Position numbers and translations under genes: made by a program. Of a stretch of 32,832 nt of DNA, positions 6,003 to 20,437 are shown one piece after another (within the stretch, counting starts at the first letter, position 1; every line of letters begins with the position of its first letter). The stretch lies in NCBI GenBank assembly GCA_023705985.1, contig BPTO01000019.1, positions 1 to 32,832 on the forward strand, in the 5' to 3' direction. The notes under the pieces were generated by a model, which was not told the origin of the DNA, ran no database searches, and saw nothing but the letters and a program-made list of their open reading frames with translations. This stretch comes from Candidatus Heimdallarchaeota archaeon (GTDB taxonomy: Archaea > Asgardarchaeota > Heimdallarchaeia > Heimdallarchaeales > Heimdallarchaeaceae).

Positions 6003-7145
6003 TCAGTAATGGTTTATAAGATTGTATAGCGTATCACGTTCGACAGGAATACGATTTGCATCTTTTATTATTGCTACAAAATCTTCCACTGTCATCAATT
6101 CACCATACGTTCCACCAGCTTTTTTCGTTATATTCTCAGTAAATAAAGTACCCCCAAGATCATTTACTCCTGCATCAAGAGAAATTTGGGCTAATTTTGG
6201 TCCAAGTTTTACCCAAGATGTTTGTATATTATGGATAGATTCACCTAAATAGAGTCTAGCTGCACTATAAAGAGCTAAATCGTGCATTCCTGAACTACTA
6301 GGTCGTGCACCTAGAAAGCGATACAGAATAGTGTTTTGATGCATAAAGGATAATGGAACAAATTCAGTAAAACCCTTAGAAAGTTCTTGTACCGTTTTGA
6401 GTATTACTAAATGCTCTGCTTCATCTATTAGTGATTCAACATGACCGTACATCATTGTAGCTGATGATTTTATTCCTGCACGATGCCCCGTAAGAACAAT
6501 ATTCACCCATTGTTCAGTAGATATTTTATCTGGACAAATTACTTTTCTTACTTCATCTACTAATATTTCAGCAGCTGTTCCAGGAAAGGAACCTAAGCCA
6601 TTTTTCTTGAGTTCCTTGAAGATATTTTCTATGTTCTCCCCTGAAAGTTGTGACATATAAGCTATTTCTGCGGGAGAAAAAGCATGAATGTGTATATTGG
6701 GTGCAGTTCGCTTTATTGTTTTCAATAGATCTATATAATAAGCAAAATTTATCTGGGGGTCAAGCCCTCCTTGGATACAAACTTCTGTACACCCTCTAGC
6801 TAATGCTTTCTGCGTTTCTATCTCAATATCTTCAAGCGACATCCTCTTTGAAAGAGATCGGTCTTTTCTAGATTCAGACTTGAAAGAACAAAACCTGCAG
6901 GTTCCTATACAATTATCCGTGAAATTAATATTCTGATTTGTTACAAAAGTTACATTACTCCCTACTTGTTCAGCTCTTGCTTCATCAGCTAAAGCGAGTT
7001 GAATCCCCAAATCCTTTCCTCTCTTCTTCAGCATCAAAGCAAGCTGCACTATTTCTTCTTTATGAGATTCACGAAAATTTGAAATATCCAAATGTTGGTC
7101 AATCTTAGGGGGAGAGGTATTTTTCATTTGTGTAGGTATCCTCAA
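6003..7145 (-). CDS. cofH: F0 synthase subunit 2 (5-amino-6-(D-ribitylamino)uracil--L-tyrosine 4-hydroxyphenyl transferase), radical SAM
   Basis: Radical-SAM CxxxCxxC in NINFTDNCIGTCRFCSFKS; EVCIQGGLDPQINFAYY; HIHAFSPAEIAYMS; LGSFPGTAAEIL. These are typical CofH motifs, and the gene is adjacent to cofG. Confidence 0.93.
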   Translation of the reverse strand: MRIPTQMKNTSPPKIDQHLDISNFRESHKEEIVQLALMLKKRGKDLGIQLALADEARAEQVGSNVTFVTNQNINFTDNCIGTCRFCSFKSESRKDRSLSKRMSLEDIEIETQKALARGCTEVCIQGGLDPQINFAYYIDLLKTIKRTAPNIHIHAFSPAEIAYMSQLSGENIENIFKELKKNGLGSFPGTAAEILVDEVRKVICPDKISTEQWVNIVLTGHRAGIKSSATMMYGHVESLIDEAEHLVILKTVQELSKGFTEFVPLSFMHQNTILYRFLGARPSSSGMHDLALYSAARLYLGESIHNIQTSWVKLGPKLAQISLDAGVNDLGGTLFTENITKKAGGTYGELMTVEDFVAIIKDANRIPVERDTLYNLINHY

Positions 7146-8190
7146 TTAATGTGCGTATCCTATCGCTTAAATACTTTTTATAGGAGGGATAAACTGGTAA
7201 TCTTTCCTTAAAAATATAGCCGTTCTTCTCAAGTATTTTCTTGAGGTTTTCTTCTTTTAGCCAATCCATTGTGGGATTGATAAAATCTATTGTAACAGGA
7301 GAAATACCTCCTAAATCATTAGCCCCATGAGCTAAAGCATCTATAATACGTTCACTGTTTAAGTTAGGTGGCACTTGAATATTTACAGATTTGGGTAATA
7401 TCACTCTTGCAAGAGCTACTGAGTCAAGAAAGTCTTTTTTTGATGGAGGGAGTCTGTCAGCCATTGGTGTAGAAGGTATTGGATTAAAGTTTTGAATAAT
7501 TACCTCTTGGATGTGAGAGTATTGTTTGCTAATTTTAGCAATAGATAGCAGAGATTCTATCCTTTCTGCTATATTTTCACCAATTCCAACAAGAATTCCA
7601 GTAGTAAAAGGAATTTTGAGCTTACCGGCATTCTCAATTGTCTCAAGTCTTTTTTCCGGATTCTTACCTGGAGAATTGAAATGAGGATGACCTTTACCCA
7701 TTAGACGTTTACTAACATTTTCAAGCATTAATCCCATGCTAGCATTTGAATCCTTGAGTAAAGAAAGTTCTTCAAATGAAAGTAAGCCAAGATTTGAATG
7801 GGGAAGCAGTGCTTTTTTTAAAGCTATTTCACAAAAATTTTTAACATATTCGACAGTTGAAGAATAACCATGGCGTGTTAAAAAATCACGGGCATCCGAA
7901 TACTTTGTTTCGGGTTTTTCTCCGAGGGTTAACAGAACTTCACTACATTCAACCTTTTTCGTCTTTTGAAGAAATTCAATGTACTTGGATGGAGTAATCC
8001 AAGATGAAACATCATCTGATACGAAACCACAATAATCACATTTGTTTCTACATTGACGAGTTACAGGAACGAAAATATTTCGTGAAAAAGTTATTTCGTT
8101 TTTGTAATTCTTAACACGTTTCTCATTTGCTTTATGAACAAGTTCCTCAGAGTTATTATTGACTAGAGATAAATATTTATCGAGACTCAT
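7105..8190 (-). CDS. cofG: F0 synthase subunit 1 (7,8-didemethyl-8-hydroxy-5-deazariboflavin synthase), radical SAM
   Basis: RNIFVPVTRQCRNKCDYCGF (CxxxCxxC); HPHFNSPGKNPEKRLETIENAGKLKIPFTTGILVGIGE. Overlaps cofH by 41 nt. Confidence 0.93.
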   Translation of the reverse strand: MSLDKYLSLVNNNSEELVHKANEKRVKNYKNEITFSRNIFVPVTRQCRNKCDYCGFVSDDVSSWITPSKYIEFLQKTKKVECSEVLLTLGEKPETKYSDARDFLTRHGYSSTVEYVKNFCEIALKKALLPHSNLGLLSFEELSLLKDSNASMGLMLENVSKRLMGKGHPHFNSPGKNPEKRLETIENAGKLKIPFTTGILVGIGENIAERIESLLSIAKISKQYSHIQEVIIQNFNPIPSTPMADRLPPSKKDFLDSVALARVILPKSVNIQVPPNLNSERIIDALAHGANDLGGISPVTIDFINPTMDWLKEENLKKILEKNGYIFKERLPVYPSYKKYLSDRIRTLIEDTYTNEKYLSP

Positions 8191-8873
8191 TTCTTTTCCT
8201 CATCCAGCAATGTCATTGAAACAAGAATACCCTCACCAACACGTTTTGTTTGCGTTATCTTAACGGACAGTGTTTTTTTCAAAGTATTCTTTAATTCATC
8301 TCTTAATAGAGGAATACCCCCTAAATGTCCTACTAGAATAGGAGCGAAATAGATAAACATTTTATCAACAAGTCTTCGTTGAATAAACTGTGAGATAATC
8401 GTTGATCCCCCTTCAACAAGTAATGTTTTAACATTAAAATCGTTTTTCAAATGCTCAAGTATCTGTATTAAATCAAGAAAATTAGTTTTTTCTTCTTCGC
8501 CAACAGGAATAATTGTCACTCCAAGATTGTTAAATTCGTCTCTTTTTTCGATAGGATGGGTCCTAGAAACAAAAATTACAGTAGGATACTTTTTTTGTTC
8601 TTTGATAACTTTAGAATCTATAGGAATTGAACCTTTAGAATCGAGAATAACTCGAAGAGGGTGTTTTTTACGCGAGGTTATGTATCTAACTGTAAGCAAT
8701 GGATTATCAATGATAACAGTGTTTTTTCCTACAAGAATAGCATCAACACTACTTCTCAATGAATGAACTCTTTCTAAATCTTCTCTACTTGACAGATGTA
8801 AAGCTCCCTTATTAGAAGCAATGAAACCATCTAAGGAAGAAGCAACATTGATAATCACTTTTGGTCTTTTCAT
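8187..8873 (-). CDS. arfC: RibD_C-family reductase, probable 2,5-diamino-6-(ribosylamino)-4(3H)-pyrimidinone 5'-phosphate reductase
   Basis: RPKVIINVASSLDGFIA, LRSSVDAILVGKNTVIIDNPLLTVR, LLVEGGSTIISQFI. ATGA-type 4-nt overlaps with both neighbours. Confidence 0.87.
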   Translation of the reverse strand: MKRPKVIINVASSLDGFIASNKGALHLSSREDLERVHSLRSSVDAILVGKNTVIIDNPLLTVRYITSRKKHPLRVILDSKGSIPIDSKVIKEQKKYPTVIFVSRTHPIEKRDEFNNLGVTIIPVGEEEKTNFLDLIQILEHLKNDFNVKTLLVEGGSTIISQFIQRRLVDKMFIYFAPILVGHLGGIPLLRDELKNTLKKTLSVKITQTKRVGEGILVSMTLLDEEKK

Positions 8874-10183: not shown

Positions 10184-11755
10184 CTATTTTTTCTTTGTCT
10201 TCTTTGAGATTATCCTTGTGAGTAATAAGGGAAATATTAGCATTATGAGAATAAATGTGAAGTTTGATTGATTCTTATCTGTAGTAGATTCAACTGAATG
10301 TACGGTAGGTTCATCGAGAGGATATAGATCTTCTGAATTTGCAGAACCATCTATATAATAAGAACCTGTTCCTGACCAATCTGACCAGTAATTACCTTCA
10401 AGTGTTTCAGTACTATACCAATAGTTGTTAGCTCCAGAATCATACGCTTGGGAAGTACCACCAAGGTTATTATCTACAAAAGTATTATGGTGAAAAAGAA
10501 TATCATCAGAAATAGATGAGGAGTATACTCCATATTTTTCATTTTCTTGTAGAAGATTGTAAGTAACGACACAAAAATCAGAAGAGGAAAGATAGATGCC
10601 ATGGTTGCTGTTGTTGTTGCAAGTGTTGTTGGAAACAGTAGAATTACTAGAATAGTAAAGATAGATGCCAATATCGTTGTTATCGCTGCACATGTTATTT
10701 GTAACAGTAGAACTACCAGAATCATCAAGCAAGATGCCTATGCAGTTATTGCTGCAAGTGTTGTTGGAAACAGTAGAACTACCAGAATCATCAAGCACGA
10801 TACCTCGTAAGTTGTTGATACAAGTGTTGTTGGAAACAGTATAATCACTAGAAGACAAAAGATAGATACCTCTGTAATTGTTGATGCAAGTGTTGTTAAT
10901 GACAGTAGAATCACCAGAAGAGGAAAGAGAGATGCCATCCCTGTTGTTGTTGATACAAGTGTTGTTGACAACAGTAGAACCAACAGAAGAGGAAAGAGAG
11001 ATACCAATATCGTTGTTACTACTACAAGTGTTGTTGGAAACAGTAGAAATAGTAGAAGATAAAAGATAGATACCGCTGAAGTTGTTGTTGTAGCAAGTGT
11101 TGTTGGAAACAGTCGAACTACCAGACGAGGATAACAAGATGCCATCGTTGTTATTTTTGCTGCAAGTGTTGTTAGTAACAGTAGAACCATAAGAAAATCG
11201 AAGATAGATACCGCTGAAGTTGTTGTTGTTGCAAGCGTTGTTAGTAACAGTAGAAATACTAGAACATAAAAGTTTGATACCATAGTTATTGTTACTGCAA
11301 GTGTTGTTGGAAACGGTAGAAATACCAGAATTCCAAAGATAGATGCCAATGTCGTTGTTATTGTTGCACGTATTATTATTGACAGTAGCTGTTAAATAAG
11401 CGACATCATCGATATAAATGCCATTGATTAATGCGTCAACATAGCAGTTGCGAACAATGAAATATTTTGTTGTATCAGTAATATAAATACCATTTTGACT
11501 CGTTGTTATAATATTGTAACCCTCAATAAGATAAGGATCCTCGACAGTTCCTGTTCCTGGAAAAACTTCAAAATCGCTATCACTTGTTATTTCAATAGGA
11601 TCATGAGATATTAATGCAAAAGATATATAGTTAGCAGAAGAAGACAATACAGAATCGAATTTGACTGTTGTATTATTATTGCTAAATAAAAATAATATTA
11701 TTAATAAACCTATTAAAAATATATTAGTTATAGTTAAGTGTTTTTTTGACATCAT
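10184..11755 (-). CDS. NosD-like right-handed parallel beta-helix surface protein with C-terminal TM anchor (copy A)
   Basis: N-terminal signal/TM; EDPYLIEGYNI; about 12 tandem NN(T/A/M)C-containing repeats (STVSNNTCSNNN.GI.L); GNYWSDWSGTGSYYIDG..DLYPLDE; C-terminal FPLLLTRIISKKTKKK. Confidence 0.88.
   Translation of the reverse strand: MMSKKHLTITNIFLIGLLIILFLFSNNNTTVKFDSVLSSSANYISFALISHDPIEITSDSDFEVFPGTGTVEDPYLIEGYNIITTSQNGIYITDTTKYFIVRNCYVDALINGIYIDDVAYLTATVNNNTCNNNNDIGIYLWNSGISTVSNNTCSNNNYGIKLLCSSISTVTNNACNNNNFSGIYLRFSYGSTVTNNTCSKNNNDGILLSSSGSSTVSNNTCYNNNFSGIYLLSSTISTVSNNTCSSNNDIGISLSSSVGSTVVNNTCINNNRDGISLSSSGDSTVINNTCINNYRGIYLLSSSDYTVSNNTCINNLRGIVLDDSGSSTVSNNTCSNNCIGILLDDSGSSTVTNNMCSDNNDIGIYLYYSSNSTVSNNTCNNNSNHGIYLSSSDFCVVTYNLLQENEKYGVYSSSISDDILFHHNTFVDNNLGGTSQAYDSGANNYWYSTETLEGNYWSDWSGTGSYYIDGSANSEDLYPLDEPTVHSVESTTDKNQSNFTFILIMLIFPLLLTRIISKKTKKK
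10185..10233. repeat. 49-nt perfect direct repeat, copy 1 (3' end of NosD copy A)
   Basis: 'tattttttctttgtcttctttgagattatccttgtgagtaataagggaa', identical to 11819-11867; encodes the shared LLLTRIISKKTKKK tail. Confidence 0.9.
10600..11400 (-). repeat. Tandem in-frame repeats of roughly 66-72 bp encoding beta-helix coils
   Basis: Recurrent plus-strand core 'caagtgttgttggaaacagtagaa' with variable spacers; encodes STVSNNTC.NNN.GI.L.SS units. Confidence 0.85.
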
Positions 11756-11817
11756 TTCTCCATTATCCCCATTGAAATTCTACTTGATTGACACTTTTTA
11801 AGTTCCACCCCAAATAG

Positions 11818-13506
11818 TTATTTTTTCTTTGTCTTCTTTGAGATTATCCTTGTGAGTAATAAGGGAACTACTAATATTAGAAGAGTAAGTGTGAAGTTTG
11901 ATGGATTTTCATCTGTAGTAGATTCAATTGAAGTGTGTTCAGTTGTAGTATGTTCAAAAACTTCATCAAGAGGGTAAAGATCGAATGCTCCAGCTGAACC
12001 ATCAATATAATAGTAACCTGTTCCCGACCAATCTGACCAAAAATTTCCTTCATTAGTGATTACATCACACCAGATATTATTATTTCCATCATCATACGCT
12101 TGGGAAGTTCCTACTAGATTATTGTCTAAAAAGGTATTATGGTGAATATGATTATTATCAGAACTAGATTCTATGTATATTCCATAACCTTCATTTTCTT
12201 GTAGAAGATTGTAAGTAGCGACACAAAAATCAGAAGAGGAAAGAGAGATACCTTCAAAGTTATTATTGATGCAAGTGTTGTTGGAAACAGTAGAACGGCT
12301 AGTATGGTAAAACCAGATGCCTCCCCTCTCGTTGTTGCTGCAAGTGTTGTTGAAAACAGTAGAATTAACAGAAGTGGAAAGCGAGAGGCCTCTGTGGTTA
12401 TTGATGCAAGTGTTGCTGGAAACAGTAGAACTAATAGAAGTGGAAAGCAAGAGGCCTACAAGATTGTTGTTACATGTGTTATTGGAAATAGTAGAACTAT
12501 CAGAATAGTAAAGCAAAATACCTCTGTAGTTGTTGTTGCAAGTGTTGTCGGAAACAGTAGAGGAAGAAGAAGTGTAGAGAAAGATGCCAGTATCGTTGTT
12601 ATTGTTGCAAGTGTTGTTGAAAACAGTAGAACTAACAGAATTGTCGAGAAAGATGCCAACATCGCCATTGTTGCAAGTGTTGTCAATAATAGTTGAATAT
12701 GTACAAGAGTAGAGAAATAGACCAGTTGTAGCATTATTTAATATTTGGTCACGCACTGTAACATTAGTACAATTGATGAATATTAATTGACCATAAACTG
12801 GTTCAGCAATAATCGTAGATTCAAGGTTAGTGTAAAAACCTAGTTTTTTCCCATTCACCCAATTATTTTCTATAACATACGATAGGTAAGCATCAATGGT
12901 ATATTCGTATATATATAAACCACAATTAGTAAAAGTGTTGTTGGAAATAGTAGAGTTGCCAGAATGCGGAAGCCTGATGCCATAGTGGTTATTATTACTG
13001 CAAGTGTTGTTGGAAATAATAGAATGATCAGAACGATAAAGATTGATGCCACCATAGTCATTGTTGCCACATATGTTGTTGGAAATAGTAGAATTAATAG
13101 AGGAATCAAGCTTGATACCGTCATGTACATTGTTGCTACATGTGTTGTTAGAAACAGTTGCTGTCCCATCAGCTACATTATCGATATAAATACCATCATA
13201 TATTGCGTCAACATAGCAGTTACGAATAATAAAATAATTAGTTGTATTATAGATATAAATTCCAGTATATTCTGTTGTTATAATTTCCAACCCTTCAATA
13301 ATATAAGGATCTTCAGCTGTTCCTGTTCCTAGAAAACCGTAATCGGTGAAATTATCGTCAGAAATTATTTCAATTGATTCATGGGGTGTCAATTCTAATG
13401 AAGGAGGTCTGTAATCATTCTCTTCAGCAGTTATTTGTACATTGACATTTGATGCGTAGATTGACAATGTCAGTATTAGTAAAAATATTGTTGTTTTCTT
13501 TTGCAT
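11818..13506 (-). CDS. NosD-like right-handed parallel beta-helix surface protein with C-terminal TM anchor (copy B)
   Basis: Tandem paralog of 10184..11755 with the same N- and C-terminal motifs. It additionally contains a NosD-type segment NNWVNGKKLGFYTNLESTIIAEPVYGQLIFINCTNVTV. Confidence 0.88.
   Translation of the reverse strand: MQKKTTIFLLILTLSIYASNVNVQITAEENDYRPPSLELTPHESIEIISDDNFTDYGFLGTGTAEDPYIIEGLEIITTEYTGIYIYNTTNYFIIRNCYVDAIYDGIYIDNVADGTATVSNNTCSNNVHDGIKLDSSINSTISNNICGNNDYGGINLYRSDHSIISNNTCSNNNHYGIRLPHSGNSTISNNTFTNCGLYIYEYTIDAYLSYVIENNWVNGKKLGFYTNLESTIIAEPVYGQLIFINCTNVTVRDQILNNATTGLFLYSCTYSTIIDNTCNNGDVGIFLDNSVSSTVFNNTCNNNNDTGIFLYTSSSSTVSDNTCNNNYRGILLYYSDSSTISNNTCNNNLVGLLLSTSISSTVSSNTCINNHRGLSLSTSVNSTVFNNTCSNNERGGIWFYHTSRSTVSNNTCINNNFEGISLSSSDFCVATYNLLQENEGYGIYIESSSDNNHIHHNTFLDNNLVGTSQAYDDGNNNIWCDVITNEGNFWSDWSGTGYYYIDGSAGAFDLYPLDEVFEHTTTEHTSIESTTDENPSNFTLTLLILVVPLLLTRIISKKTKKK
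11819..11867. repeat. 49-nt perfect direct repeat, copy 2 (3' end of NosD copy B)
   Basis: Identical by eye to 10185-10233. Confidence 0.9.
12250..13165 (-). repeat. Tandem in-frame beta-helix repeats in copy B, interrupted by a non-repeat insert at about 12690-12930
   Basis: Same 'aagtgttgttggaaacagtag' core in two blocks flanking the VNGKKL...YGQLIF insert. Confidence 0.82.
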
Positions 13507-13875: not shown

Positions 13876-16092
13876 ATGGTTCGCGTAAAGAACGCTGAAG
13901 AAATTAGGGATATGATTAAACATCACCCAATGGATTTAAGACGTGTGTTTACTATTGCAGCTCACATTGACCATGGAAAAACAACCACAAGTGATTTTTT
14001 GCTCAGAAGAGCAGGTTTGATGTCTGATGCTGACGCTGGAAAAAAAGTTATGATGGATAGCGACGAGGAAGAACAAGAAAGAGGAATTACTATTTTTACT
14101 AGTGTTGTTCTACTCAATTACGACTATGGTGACAAACAATATCTTTTTGAGATTAACGATACACCAGGTCATATATCTTTTACAGGAGAGGTGTCTCGTG
14201 CCTTGCGCGGCAGTGATGGTGTCATTCTCTTAGTTGATGCTCTTGAAGGTGTTATGACCCAAACTGAGACTAATATCCGCTTAAGTATAGGCGAGATGTG
14301 TAAACCTGTCTTATTTATCAACAAGGTTGATCGTCTCATTTCTGAATTGCGATTAGCTCCTAAGGATGTCTTTTCTAAGATTGATTCTATTATCTCACAG
14401 GTAAACAGATTAATTAAAGCATGTGCTCCCAAAGAATTGTCTAAAGAATGGCAAGTTTCCTTTGTTAATGATTCCGTCTCTGTTGGAAGCGCAAAAGATG
14501 GCTGGGCTTTTAATATGTCCACCCTTAAACGATTAGAAATCAAACCTCAAGTAGTCTTTGAAAAATATGCCGAAGATAACAAGGATTGGCTAAAGACTGA
14601 ACTTCCTCTCGAAGATCCTCTTCTTGAAATGGTTATTAAACACCTACCCAATCCTGTTGAAGGTCAAAAATTGAAAATCCCTCATATCTGGTCTGGTGAT
14701 CTTGAGAGTGAAGTAGGCAAATCCTTGATAGAATGCGATCCAAACGGACCATTACTAGGTATGATTACAAAAATATTCATAGATCCAAAATCTAAAAGGC
14801 CGACACTTATAGGGCGAGTTTTTTCAGGAACACTTAGGAATTCAGATATATTGTATTTAGTAGGTAAAAAGACTAAGGTAAAAATAAAAAGACTGGGAGT
14901 TATGGAAATTACTGACATTCTTGATGTTGATGAAGTTCCTGCTGGAAACTTATTTGCTATTTATGGTTTTATTTGTCCAGCTGGTGAAACATTCGTTTTA
15001 GATGGTGAGCAGGAGAAAATCACCGTTTTTGAGGAAATCTCTTATGTAGCTGAACCTGTAGTTAGTCGAACAATTAAACCCAAAGATCCAAAAGACATAG
15101 CGAAATTGGGTGAAGTTGTTTCCAAATGGATAATGGCCGATCCAACAGCAACTTTTAGACATGATGAAGAATCAAAAACTTATGTTCTTTCAGGAATTGA
15201 TCCTCTACAAATCGAAATCTTGGTTACAAGAATTCGAGAACAAGTAGAAATAGAAGTCAGTGATCCTATAGTTGTCTATAGAGAACTACCTACGACCAAA
15301 GGAATAGATGTTCATTCAAAATCACCAAATGGTCATAACAGATTGTTAATTCATATAGAACCATTAGATAAAAAAGCTATGGCATTATTCAAGAGTGGAA
15401 AAGTAAACATGGATCAAGACAGAAGGACGAGAGCACAAATTCTACAACAAGAAGCAGGATGGGAAGCAAAAGTAGCTAGAAGGATATGGACAATAAGCGA
15501 GACAAACGTATTAATTGATGCAACAACAGGAGTTCAAAGATTCGATAATATTAAACAATATATCATTCAAGTTTTCATGGATTTCTGCAATGGAGCAACA
15601 CTAGCAAAAGAGCCACTAATGGGAAGTAAATACATCATAACAGATGCAACAGTACACGTAGACCCAGCACACACTGGTTTTACTGAAATTTTTCAAATGG
15701 CTTTAGCTGGTTACCACACAACCTTCCTAACAAGCGATCCCCATATACTAGAACCTATACTAATGATTGATATCAAAGTTCCTTCCAATTATGTAGGTAA
15801 TATGTCCAAAGTTATTACTCAACATCGTGGAATTATTCAAGAAATGACTCAAGACGGTGAAAATACTTTGATAAAAGGAAAAATCCCTACAGCTGAAACA
15901 ATAGATTTAGCAGATGAAATAAGAAGTAACAGCTCGGGAAGAGCTTTCTTTGGTTACCAATTCTTGGGTTTTGAACCAGTGCCTAAAAATCTTGAAAAAG
16001 AATTAATACAAAGTATTAGAGAGAGAAAAGAACTACCTCCAGACATTCCAGATATTTCAAACTGGGATCGATTTATGTACAGACGTACATAA
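13876..16092 (+). CDS. Elongation factor 2 family GTPase, divergent paralog (diphthamide-loop deficient)
   Basis: 738 aa; AHIDHGKTTTSD (G1), ERGITI (G2), DTPGHISF (G3), NKVDRL (G4), domain IV SPNGHNRLLIHIEPL, domain V GRAFFGYQFLGFEPVP. The diphthamide region reads VHVDPAHTGFTE rather than LHxDAIHRGxxQ. Confidence 0.95.
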   Translation: MVRVKNAEEIRDMIKHHPMDLRRVFTIAAHIDHGKTTTSDFLLRRAGLMSDADAGKKVMMDSDEEEQERGITIFTSVVLLNYDYGDKQYLFEINDTPGHISFTGEVSRALRGSDGVILLVDALEGVMTQTETNIRLSIGEMCKPVLFINKVDRLISELRLAPKDVFSKIDSIISQVNRLIKACAPKELSKEWQVSFVNDSVSVGSAKDGWAFNMSTLKRLEIKPQVVFEKYAEDNKDWLKTELPLEDPLLEMVIKHLPNPVEGQKLKIPHIWSGDLESEVGKSLIECDPNGPLLGMITKIFIDPKSKRPTLIGRVFSGTLRNSDILYLVGKKTKVKIKRLGVMEITDILDVDEVPAGNLFAIYGFICPAGETFVLDGEQEKITVFEEISYVAEPVVSRTIKPKDPKDIAKLGEVVSKWIMADPTATFRHDEESKTYVLSGIDPLQIEILVTRIREQVEIEVSDPIVVYRELPTTKGIDVHSKSPNGHNRLLIHIEPLDKKAMALFKSGKVNMDQDRRTRAQILQQEAGWEAKVARRIWTISETNVLIDATTGVQRFDNIKQYIIQVFMDFCNGATLAKEPLMGSKYIITDATVHVDPAHTGFTEIFQMALAGYHTTFLTSDPHILEPILMIDIKVPSNYVGNMSKVITQHRGIIQEMTQDGENTLIKGKIPTAETIDLADEIRSNSSGRAFFGYQFLGFEPVPKNLEKELIQSIRERKELPPDIPDISNWDRFMYRRT

Positions 16093-19432: not shown

Positions 19433-20437
19433 CTAAACAGGCACAACAAGATTCCTTAGAATCTCATCTACAACCATTGTTCCAGTTGTTCCTTCAAGTT
19501 CAGCTTCAGGCTTCATCTGCAACCTGTGAGAAGTTGCTATTTTTGACACTCTTTTTATATCATCGGGGATGACATAATCTCTTCCTCTCATAGATGCAAC
19601 AGCTTTTCCAGCGTTGAGAAGGGCTATGCTACATCGTGGACTACCACCTAGTATAAGTCTTGGGTCTGTTCTTGTTGCGACAACTAGCTCTCGGATGTAA
19701 TTAATAATATCCTCATGTACATATACTCTTCTTGCAACAGTTTCAATCATTTTTGTTATTGTCATAGGAGTAGTTACTCGTCGAACAGTTTTGCGGATTC
19801 CTTTATGAATTAATTCAATAATCTCTTTTTCTTCATCAGGAGATGGCAAGTCTACAAGAAGTTTGAACATGAAACGATCAACTTGTGCTTCTGGCAATGG
19901 GTAAGTTCCTTCTTGTTCTATTGGATTCTGTGTGGCAATAACTAAGAATGGTGGTTCAAGCTCAAATGTTGTTCCTTCGACAGTGACTTGTTTTTCCGCC
20001 ATTGCTTCTAATAGCGCAGCTTGGGTTTTTGGTGGACTTCTGTTAATTTCGTCAGATAAGACGATATTACAAAATATTGGCCCTTTTCTCATTTTGAAGG
20101 TTCCAGCTTTTGGGTCATAAATTGTTGTTCCAACAACATCACTTGGTAGTAAGTCGGGTGTGAATTGTATTCTCTTAAAATCGCACCCTAGTGTTGCTGC
20201 AAAATACTTAGCCATCACAGTTTTTGCAATTCCAGGGACTCCTTCTAATAGACAATGTCCTCCTCCTAGAAGAGCAATAAACATATCCTCTAGAATATCT
20301 ACGTTGCCTATTATCACTTTTTCAAGTTCGCTATAGATTTCTTCCCAAACACGTTTAACATCCTTCGGTGTAACATATGTTTCTGTTTCTGCTTGTGCCT
20401 GTGCTTTTGCTGGTTTTTCTTCACTCATACTTTTCAC
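19433..20437 (-). CDS. MoxR-family AAA+ ATPase
   Basis: HCLLEGVPGIAKTVMAKYFA (Walker A), RIQFTPDLLPSDVVGTTIYDP, NIVLSDEINRSPPKTQAALLEAMAEKQVTVEG, FLVIATQNPIEQEGTYPLPEAQVDRFMFK. Confidence 0.96.
   Translation of the reverse strand: MKSMSEEKPAKAQAQAETETYVTPKDVKRVWEEIYSELEKVIIGNVDILEDMFIALLGGGHCLLEGVPGIAKTVMAKYFAATLGCDFKRIQFTPDLLPSDVVGTTIYDPKAGTFKMRKGPIFCNIVLSDEINRSPPKTQAALLEAMAEKQVTVEGTTFELEPPFLVIATQNPIEQEGTYPLPEAQVDRFMFKLLVDLPSPDEEKEIIELIHKGIRKTVRRVTTPMTITKMIETVARRVYVHEDIINYIRELVVATRTDPRLILGGSPRCSIALLNAGKAVASMRGRDYVIPDDIKRVSKIATSHRLQMKPEAELEGTTGTMVVDEILRNLVVPV

Follow-up and report, generated by a model that had tools for sequence, protein, structure and literature searches.

Diphthamide is a chemical decoration of EF-2 that is normally near-universal. 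In archaea and eukaryotes it is believed to protect the reading frame, and some bacterial toxins target it. Asgard archaea are the closest kin of eukaryotes. In yeast eEF2, the codon-anticodon duplex is contacted by His694, Asp696 and Diph699 along with His583 (PMC8674143; PMC4896748), which belongs to the histidine-diphthamide triad of that protein (PMC4896748). According to the accessible parts of the literature, many Asgard archaea have lost dph genes and possess a second EF-2 (Narrowe et al. 2018, GBE evy154, as cited in PMC10307638 (Eme 2023); PMC10989751), and the monophyly of Asgard EF-2 outside Hodarchaeales has already been published (PMC10989751).

Here we analyzed a stretch of 32,832 nucleotides (the window), which is the whole of contig C19 of G000, a Heimdallarchaeaceae metagenome-assembled genome (MAG) of 3.62 Mb in 387 contigs that is 89.9% complete. 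The window contains an EF-2 gene that is another case of the published EF-2 of dph-less Asgard archaea. As far as the accessible descriptions of that group go, the two share the absence of dph genes, a place in a monophyletic Asgard group apart from Hodarchaeales and a genome that also encodes a second EF-2; no difference was found. The gene falls in the single Asgard clan and keeps the His, Asp and His residues of the tip, as expected of the main EF-2 of such archaea. We consider it very probable that this gene encodes the housekeeping EF-2, a full translocase, of a diphthamide-less archaeon and that its His599 is unmodified.

Architecture of the window EF-2

The EF-2 gene (positions 13876–16092, + strand, as are all features of this gene given below) encodes a five-domain translational GTPase of 738 amino acids with a tip of the form HxDPxHT, which we refer to as the window type. 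Its GTPase motifs and five-domain architecture are those of the EF-2/EF-G superfamily, and Pfam matches cover the G domain (PF00009) and domains III (PF14492), IV (PF03764) and V (PF00679). The best curated family is archaeal EF-2 (aEF-2, TIGR00490) with 671.7 bits, which is under the curated cut-off of 738.45. The AF2 model has a mean pLDDT of 84.8 (87 for the tip block, residues 591–600), and Foldseek aligns it over its full length with the Methanoperedens EF-2 crystal structures 6u43, 6u44 and 6u45 (TM 0.83–0.84). The five domains, this fold and the retained His/Asp set of the tip contradict the original prediction that the gene is a paralog lacking key residues.

The G1 P-loop AHIDHGKT (residues 29–36, 13960–13983), in which G34 and K35 are invariant in the alignment, and G4 NKVD (residues 149–152, 14320–14331) are both intact, and G3 carries the predicted alteration: it reads DTPGHISF (residues 95–102, 14158–14181), with Ser101 replacing Asp. 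Domain III contains GIDPLQIE (residues 440–447, 15193–15216) where canonical EF-2 has GMGELHLE. His487 of SPNGHN (15334–15336) corresponds by motif to yeast His583 of the triad.

Canonical archaeal EF-2 (TIGR00490; PDB 5h7j from Pyrococcus, 6u45 from Methanoperedens and 8hl1 from Sulfolobus) shares with the window protein the five domains, G1, G4, the HxDxxH tip and the fold, and the two are 36–38% identical in structural alignment. The window protein differs in Ser101 of G3, in DPLQ for GELH and in Thr600 for Arg. Canonical, diphthamide-modified aEF-2 is marked by an HxDxxHRG tip, by dph2 and dph5 in the genome and by a score over the TIGR00490 cut-off; the window protein and its host have none of these. 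EF-2 of the Hodarchaeales or eukaryotic type belongs to the same superfamily and has His at the diphthamide position, but it has an HEDPVHRGAGQ-type tip, an open frame of 811–826 amino acids and dph genes alongside, and shares 34–38% identity with the window protein across the main part of the alignment.

Relatives whose EF-2 is 78–81% identical are Heimdallarchaeota MAGs that include Ca. Heimdallarchaeum endolithica and AB_125. The gene order 3′ of the window EF-2 (membrane protein, DUF58, 19433–20437) is kept in 14–17 relatives. On the 5′ side, two NosD-like beta-helix genes (10184–13506) lie between an amidohydrolase gene and EF-2; in relatives the amidohydrolase gene is directly 5′ of EF-2, and the two NosD-like genes are unmatched in the fetched stretches. 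Elsewhere in the window, two adjacent radical SAM genes (6003–8190), one with a CofH/MqnC C-terminal region, lie beside a RibD_C gene (8187–8873), and these genes (6003–8873) are possibly F420 cofactor genes.

Conservation of the domain IV tip and linked sites

The tip loop of domain IV, recognized from its sequence and conservation, reads VHVDPAHTGFTEI (residues 593–605, 15652–15690); codons 592–604 of the open reading frame 13876–16092 (+) are TVHVDPAHTGFTE. By motif, His594 (15655–15657), Asp596 (15661–15663) and His599 (codon CAC, 15670–15672) correspond to yeast His694, Asp696 and Diph699, respectively. His599, at the canonical diphthamide position, is retained as predicted and is presumably unmodified. 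The replacement of Arg, Gly and Gln by T-G-F-T-E that had been described was accurate for Arg, which is Thr600 here (15673–15675), and for the PAQ/AGQ flank, which has become FTE. Gly601 is retained (HRG to HTG), so the changes from HRGPAQ amount to R600T and PAQ to FTE.

We compared individual sites among 46 window-type and 17 canonical EF-2 sequences and 47 tip-less paralogs. His594, Asp596 and His599 are conserved in 100% of the window-type sequences. Position 600 is Thr in 98% of the window type and Arg in 100% of canonical sequences, and position 101 is Ser in 100% of the window type but Asp in 88% of canonical sequences and 100% of paralogs, such that G3 has the form DTPGH[IL]SF rather than DTPGHVDF. 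D442, P443 and Q445 of domain III are present in 100% of window-type rows, where the canonical residues are G, E and H. His487 is less strictly kept (83% of the window type, 100% of canonical sequences, mostly lost in paralogs). In all, the two types are near-fixed for different residues at seventeen sites, among them Asp to Ser101, Gln to Leu136, G442D/E443P/H445Q, Tyr to Arg555 and Arg to Thr600. Tip Thr, G3 Ser and DPLQ co-occur in 138 scorable rows, some of which are repeat fetches of one gene; tip Arg combined with G3 Ser or DPLQ was found in none of the rows that could be scored.

The loop had been described as degenerate. HxDxxHT, or rarely HxDxxHI, is present in every intact window-type EF-2 gene that was read; these genes come from Asgard archaea of the Heimdall, Thor, Odin and Loki types, and the recurrence of this motif with its invariant His and Asp residues is far beyond chance. 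The complete conservation of His594, Asp596 and His599 indicates that the loop is a conserved alternative and has not decayed. Positions 601–607 do differ between Asgard orders, as they would if constraint had relaxed once dph was lost and the loop were drifting, with no adapted function. That explanation appears extremely improbable to us given that H594, D596, H599 and T600 are 98–100% conserved across the phylum and that the same clan is fixed for the G3 and domain III substitutions. We rejected assembly error as a source of the variant, since it recurs in dozens of independent MAGs as well as single-contig genomes.

Some Asgard EF-2 genes contain short inserts. In four genomes (G075, G072, G074 and G160; loci L124, L125, L126 and L127, respectively) an insert of some 29 nt breaks the frame at DTPGH of G3, at the same place. 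The insert folds into a hairpin flanked by short helices and resembles an archaeal bulge-helix-bulge (BHB) mini-intron. In several Lokiarchaeia-type EF-2 genes, conserved GTPase motifs are interrupted by inserts of some 30 nt that contain in-frame stops: in switch I between TD and SDEEEQ (L170, L171, L173, L174 and L176) and in G1 between AH and IDHGK (L172 and L173). Most of these Lokiarchaeia-type inserts are hairpin-forming, and that of L172 has a BHB-like fold. Such Lokiarchaeia-type genes would be labeled as broken by automatic annotation.

Diphthamide synthesis genes across Asgard genomes

Profile searches that match in control archaea found neither dph2 (PF01866) nor dph5 (TIGR00522) in G000, and for PF01902 they returned a single 22.6-bit fragment below the cut-off, which bears out the expectation that diphthamide synthesis genes are lacking. 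The incompleteness of this MAG (89.9% complete) could hide dph genes, though dph2 and dph5 were likewise not found in the single-contig relative G007. Among 228 Asgard genomes, dph2 is present in 22 and dph5 is over the cut-off in 24, which are nearly the same genomes; the two are jointly missing from about 200, including single-contig ones. The groups with dph genes are families f5 and f6 (both Hodarchaeales-like by EF-2), f8, f12 and f13, together with single members of f20 and f23.

EF-2 type follows dph content. Canonical EF-2 genes read from genomes with dph have HEDPxHRG or HEDAVHRG, whereas those read from genomes without dph have HxDxxHT, rarely HxDxxHI, with G3 Ser. The variant loop is not common in diphthamide-modified EF-2, since HRG is present in every EF-2 read from a dph-containing Asgard genome with a canonical gene; nor is the window gene the sole EF-2 beside a complete dph set, which G000 does not have. 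There are four exceptions, all of which look like stray contigs: a dph2 fragment near a contig end in a 63% complete genome (G037), a single dph5 with no other dph gene (G008), a canonical EF-2 within a family of window-type genomes (G160, contamination 9%) and G166, with contamination of 12%, in which EF-2 was not found.

These data bear on whether His599 is still modified, either by diphthamide enzymes that were missed in MAGs or by an unrelated pathway. The invariance of His599 despite dph absence and the stray matches in G008 and G037 fit such a modification. We nevertheless regard it as quite improbable, because dph2 and dph5 are both missing from about 200 genomes, single-contig ones included, while controls match; the Arg beside the His is replaced in those same genomes; the strays are isolated and occur in genomes whose kin have no dph; and the tip His has, besides, a direct role in RNA contact.

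We found no compensating change in rRNA at the sites compared: the 530 loop and A1492-A1493 are identical in genomes with and without dph wherever they could be read. Beside the decoding adenosines, SSU rRNA pair 1409-1491 (E. coli numbering) appears as U-A in five Heimdallarchaeia (L286, L288, L291, L284 and L287, from G000, G007, G024, G056 and G059, respectively) and C-G in most other Asgard archaea read.

The second EF-2-family gene and its phylogeny

A second EF-2 in the genome had been anticipated, and an EF-2-family search of G000 found two genes of the family and no third. The second gene (contig C20, 29598–31583, − strand) encodes 662 amino acids, keeps the canonical G3 DTPGHVDF and has no HxDxxH tip. 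Judged from its sequence, the C20 gene is the tip-less paralog that the original prediction had in mind: it shares genome and superfamily with the window gene and agrees with the second EF-2 of dph-less archaea in the accessible accounts, and it is the copy that has lost the residues for modification and translocation. Across 47 paralogs, His594, Asp596 and His599 are lost, with Glu in most cases at the position of His599, and conservation averages 0.35 over domain IV, compared with 0.63 in the window type. Family members are 55–63% identical for the paralog and 78–81% for the window EF-2, so the paralog evolves faster and conservation is higher in the window gene. Codon-usage bias was tried as an expression proxy for the two genes and gave no signal; ribosomal proteins were not distinct either.

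The second gene is present in most dph-less Asgard genomes, and both genes occur in the single-contig genomes G007, G087, G121, G122, G174 and G185. In genomes with canonical EF-2, the paralog search gives at most one match, EF-2 itself. Six near-complete Lokiarchaeia-type MAGs (G132, G147, G106, G112, G115 and G137) apparently have one EF-2 type, which may be either an assembly gap or a real loss.

The presence of a second gene in G000 and most dph-less genomes, together with the long stem of the window type, could suggest that the window gene is a specialized paralog for hibernation or recycling and that another EF-2 performs normal translocation. We judge this very unlikely: the only other candidate in G000 has no tip, not even the His599 position, and evolves faster, no third EF-2 was found there, and it is the window type that keeps the tip contact residues.

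In our main tree (domains I–III, tip excluded, LG+C20+F+G4), the window type forms one clan with support of 100/100 and a stem of 0.78, and the paralogs fall together with the canonical EF-2 of Asgard archaea and Sulfolobus (support 91/87). FastTree analysis of 110 rows also recovered the window type as one clan, both on domains I–III and at full length. AU tests rejected the window type and canonical EF-2 as one clade (p 0.006) and did not reject the window type and paralog as one clade (p 0.085) or a single origin of the paralogs (p 0.18). The descent of the paralog from a canonical EF-2 copy is thus favored, not proven, given the p of 0.085 for the alternative. It is tempting to speculate on a role swap, to which we tentatively give somewhat less than even weight. 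Two classes would have coexisted early in Asgard evolution; the divergent window type would have become the diphthamide-free translocase, and canonical EF-2 would have lost its tip and become the fast-evolving paralog. The paralog would then perhaps bind the ribosome and serve as a GTPase in a different step, for example recycling or hibernation.

Discussion

Our preferred reading, that the window gene is the translocase of its host, draws on gene content and conservation, as does the proposed absence of a modification on His599. The protein would move tRNA and mRNA as other EF-2 proteins do, with the tip of domain IV entering the A site. There, His594, Asp596 and unmodified His599, with His487, would hold the codon-anticodon duplex. 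In the absence of Dph enzymes that recognize the tip, the Arg that follows His599 may have changed, together with the PAQ flank, to T-G-[F/Y]-x-[E/Q]. The linked changes in G3 (Ser101) and domain III (GIDPLQIE) point to a re-tuning of GTPase coupling within the same lineage. It could also be that His599 is retained because it carries some other modification.

To the published picture we add the linkage of three sites, the survey of dph content against EF-2 type in 228 genomes and the closeness of the paralog to canonical EF-2 in domains I–III. The three-site linkage and the canonical affinity of the paralog were not found in the accessible literature, and all three additions may overlap with Narrowe et al. 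2018.

The use of EF-2 as a tree-of-life marker is contentious (PMC10989751, PMC12395588), and our analysis of the paralog bears on which gene is chosen as "EF-2" for marker sets. If the role swap is true, canonical EF-2 would have its orthologue in the "paralog", and the Asgard "EF-2" would be a replacement. Most Asgard archaea seem to do without diphthamide, and the conserved tip and the two linked sites are the residues to probe for how a translocase manages without it.
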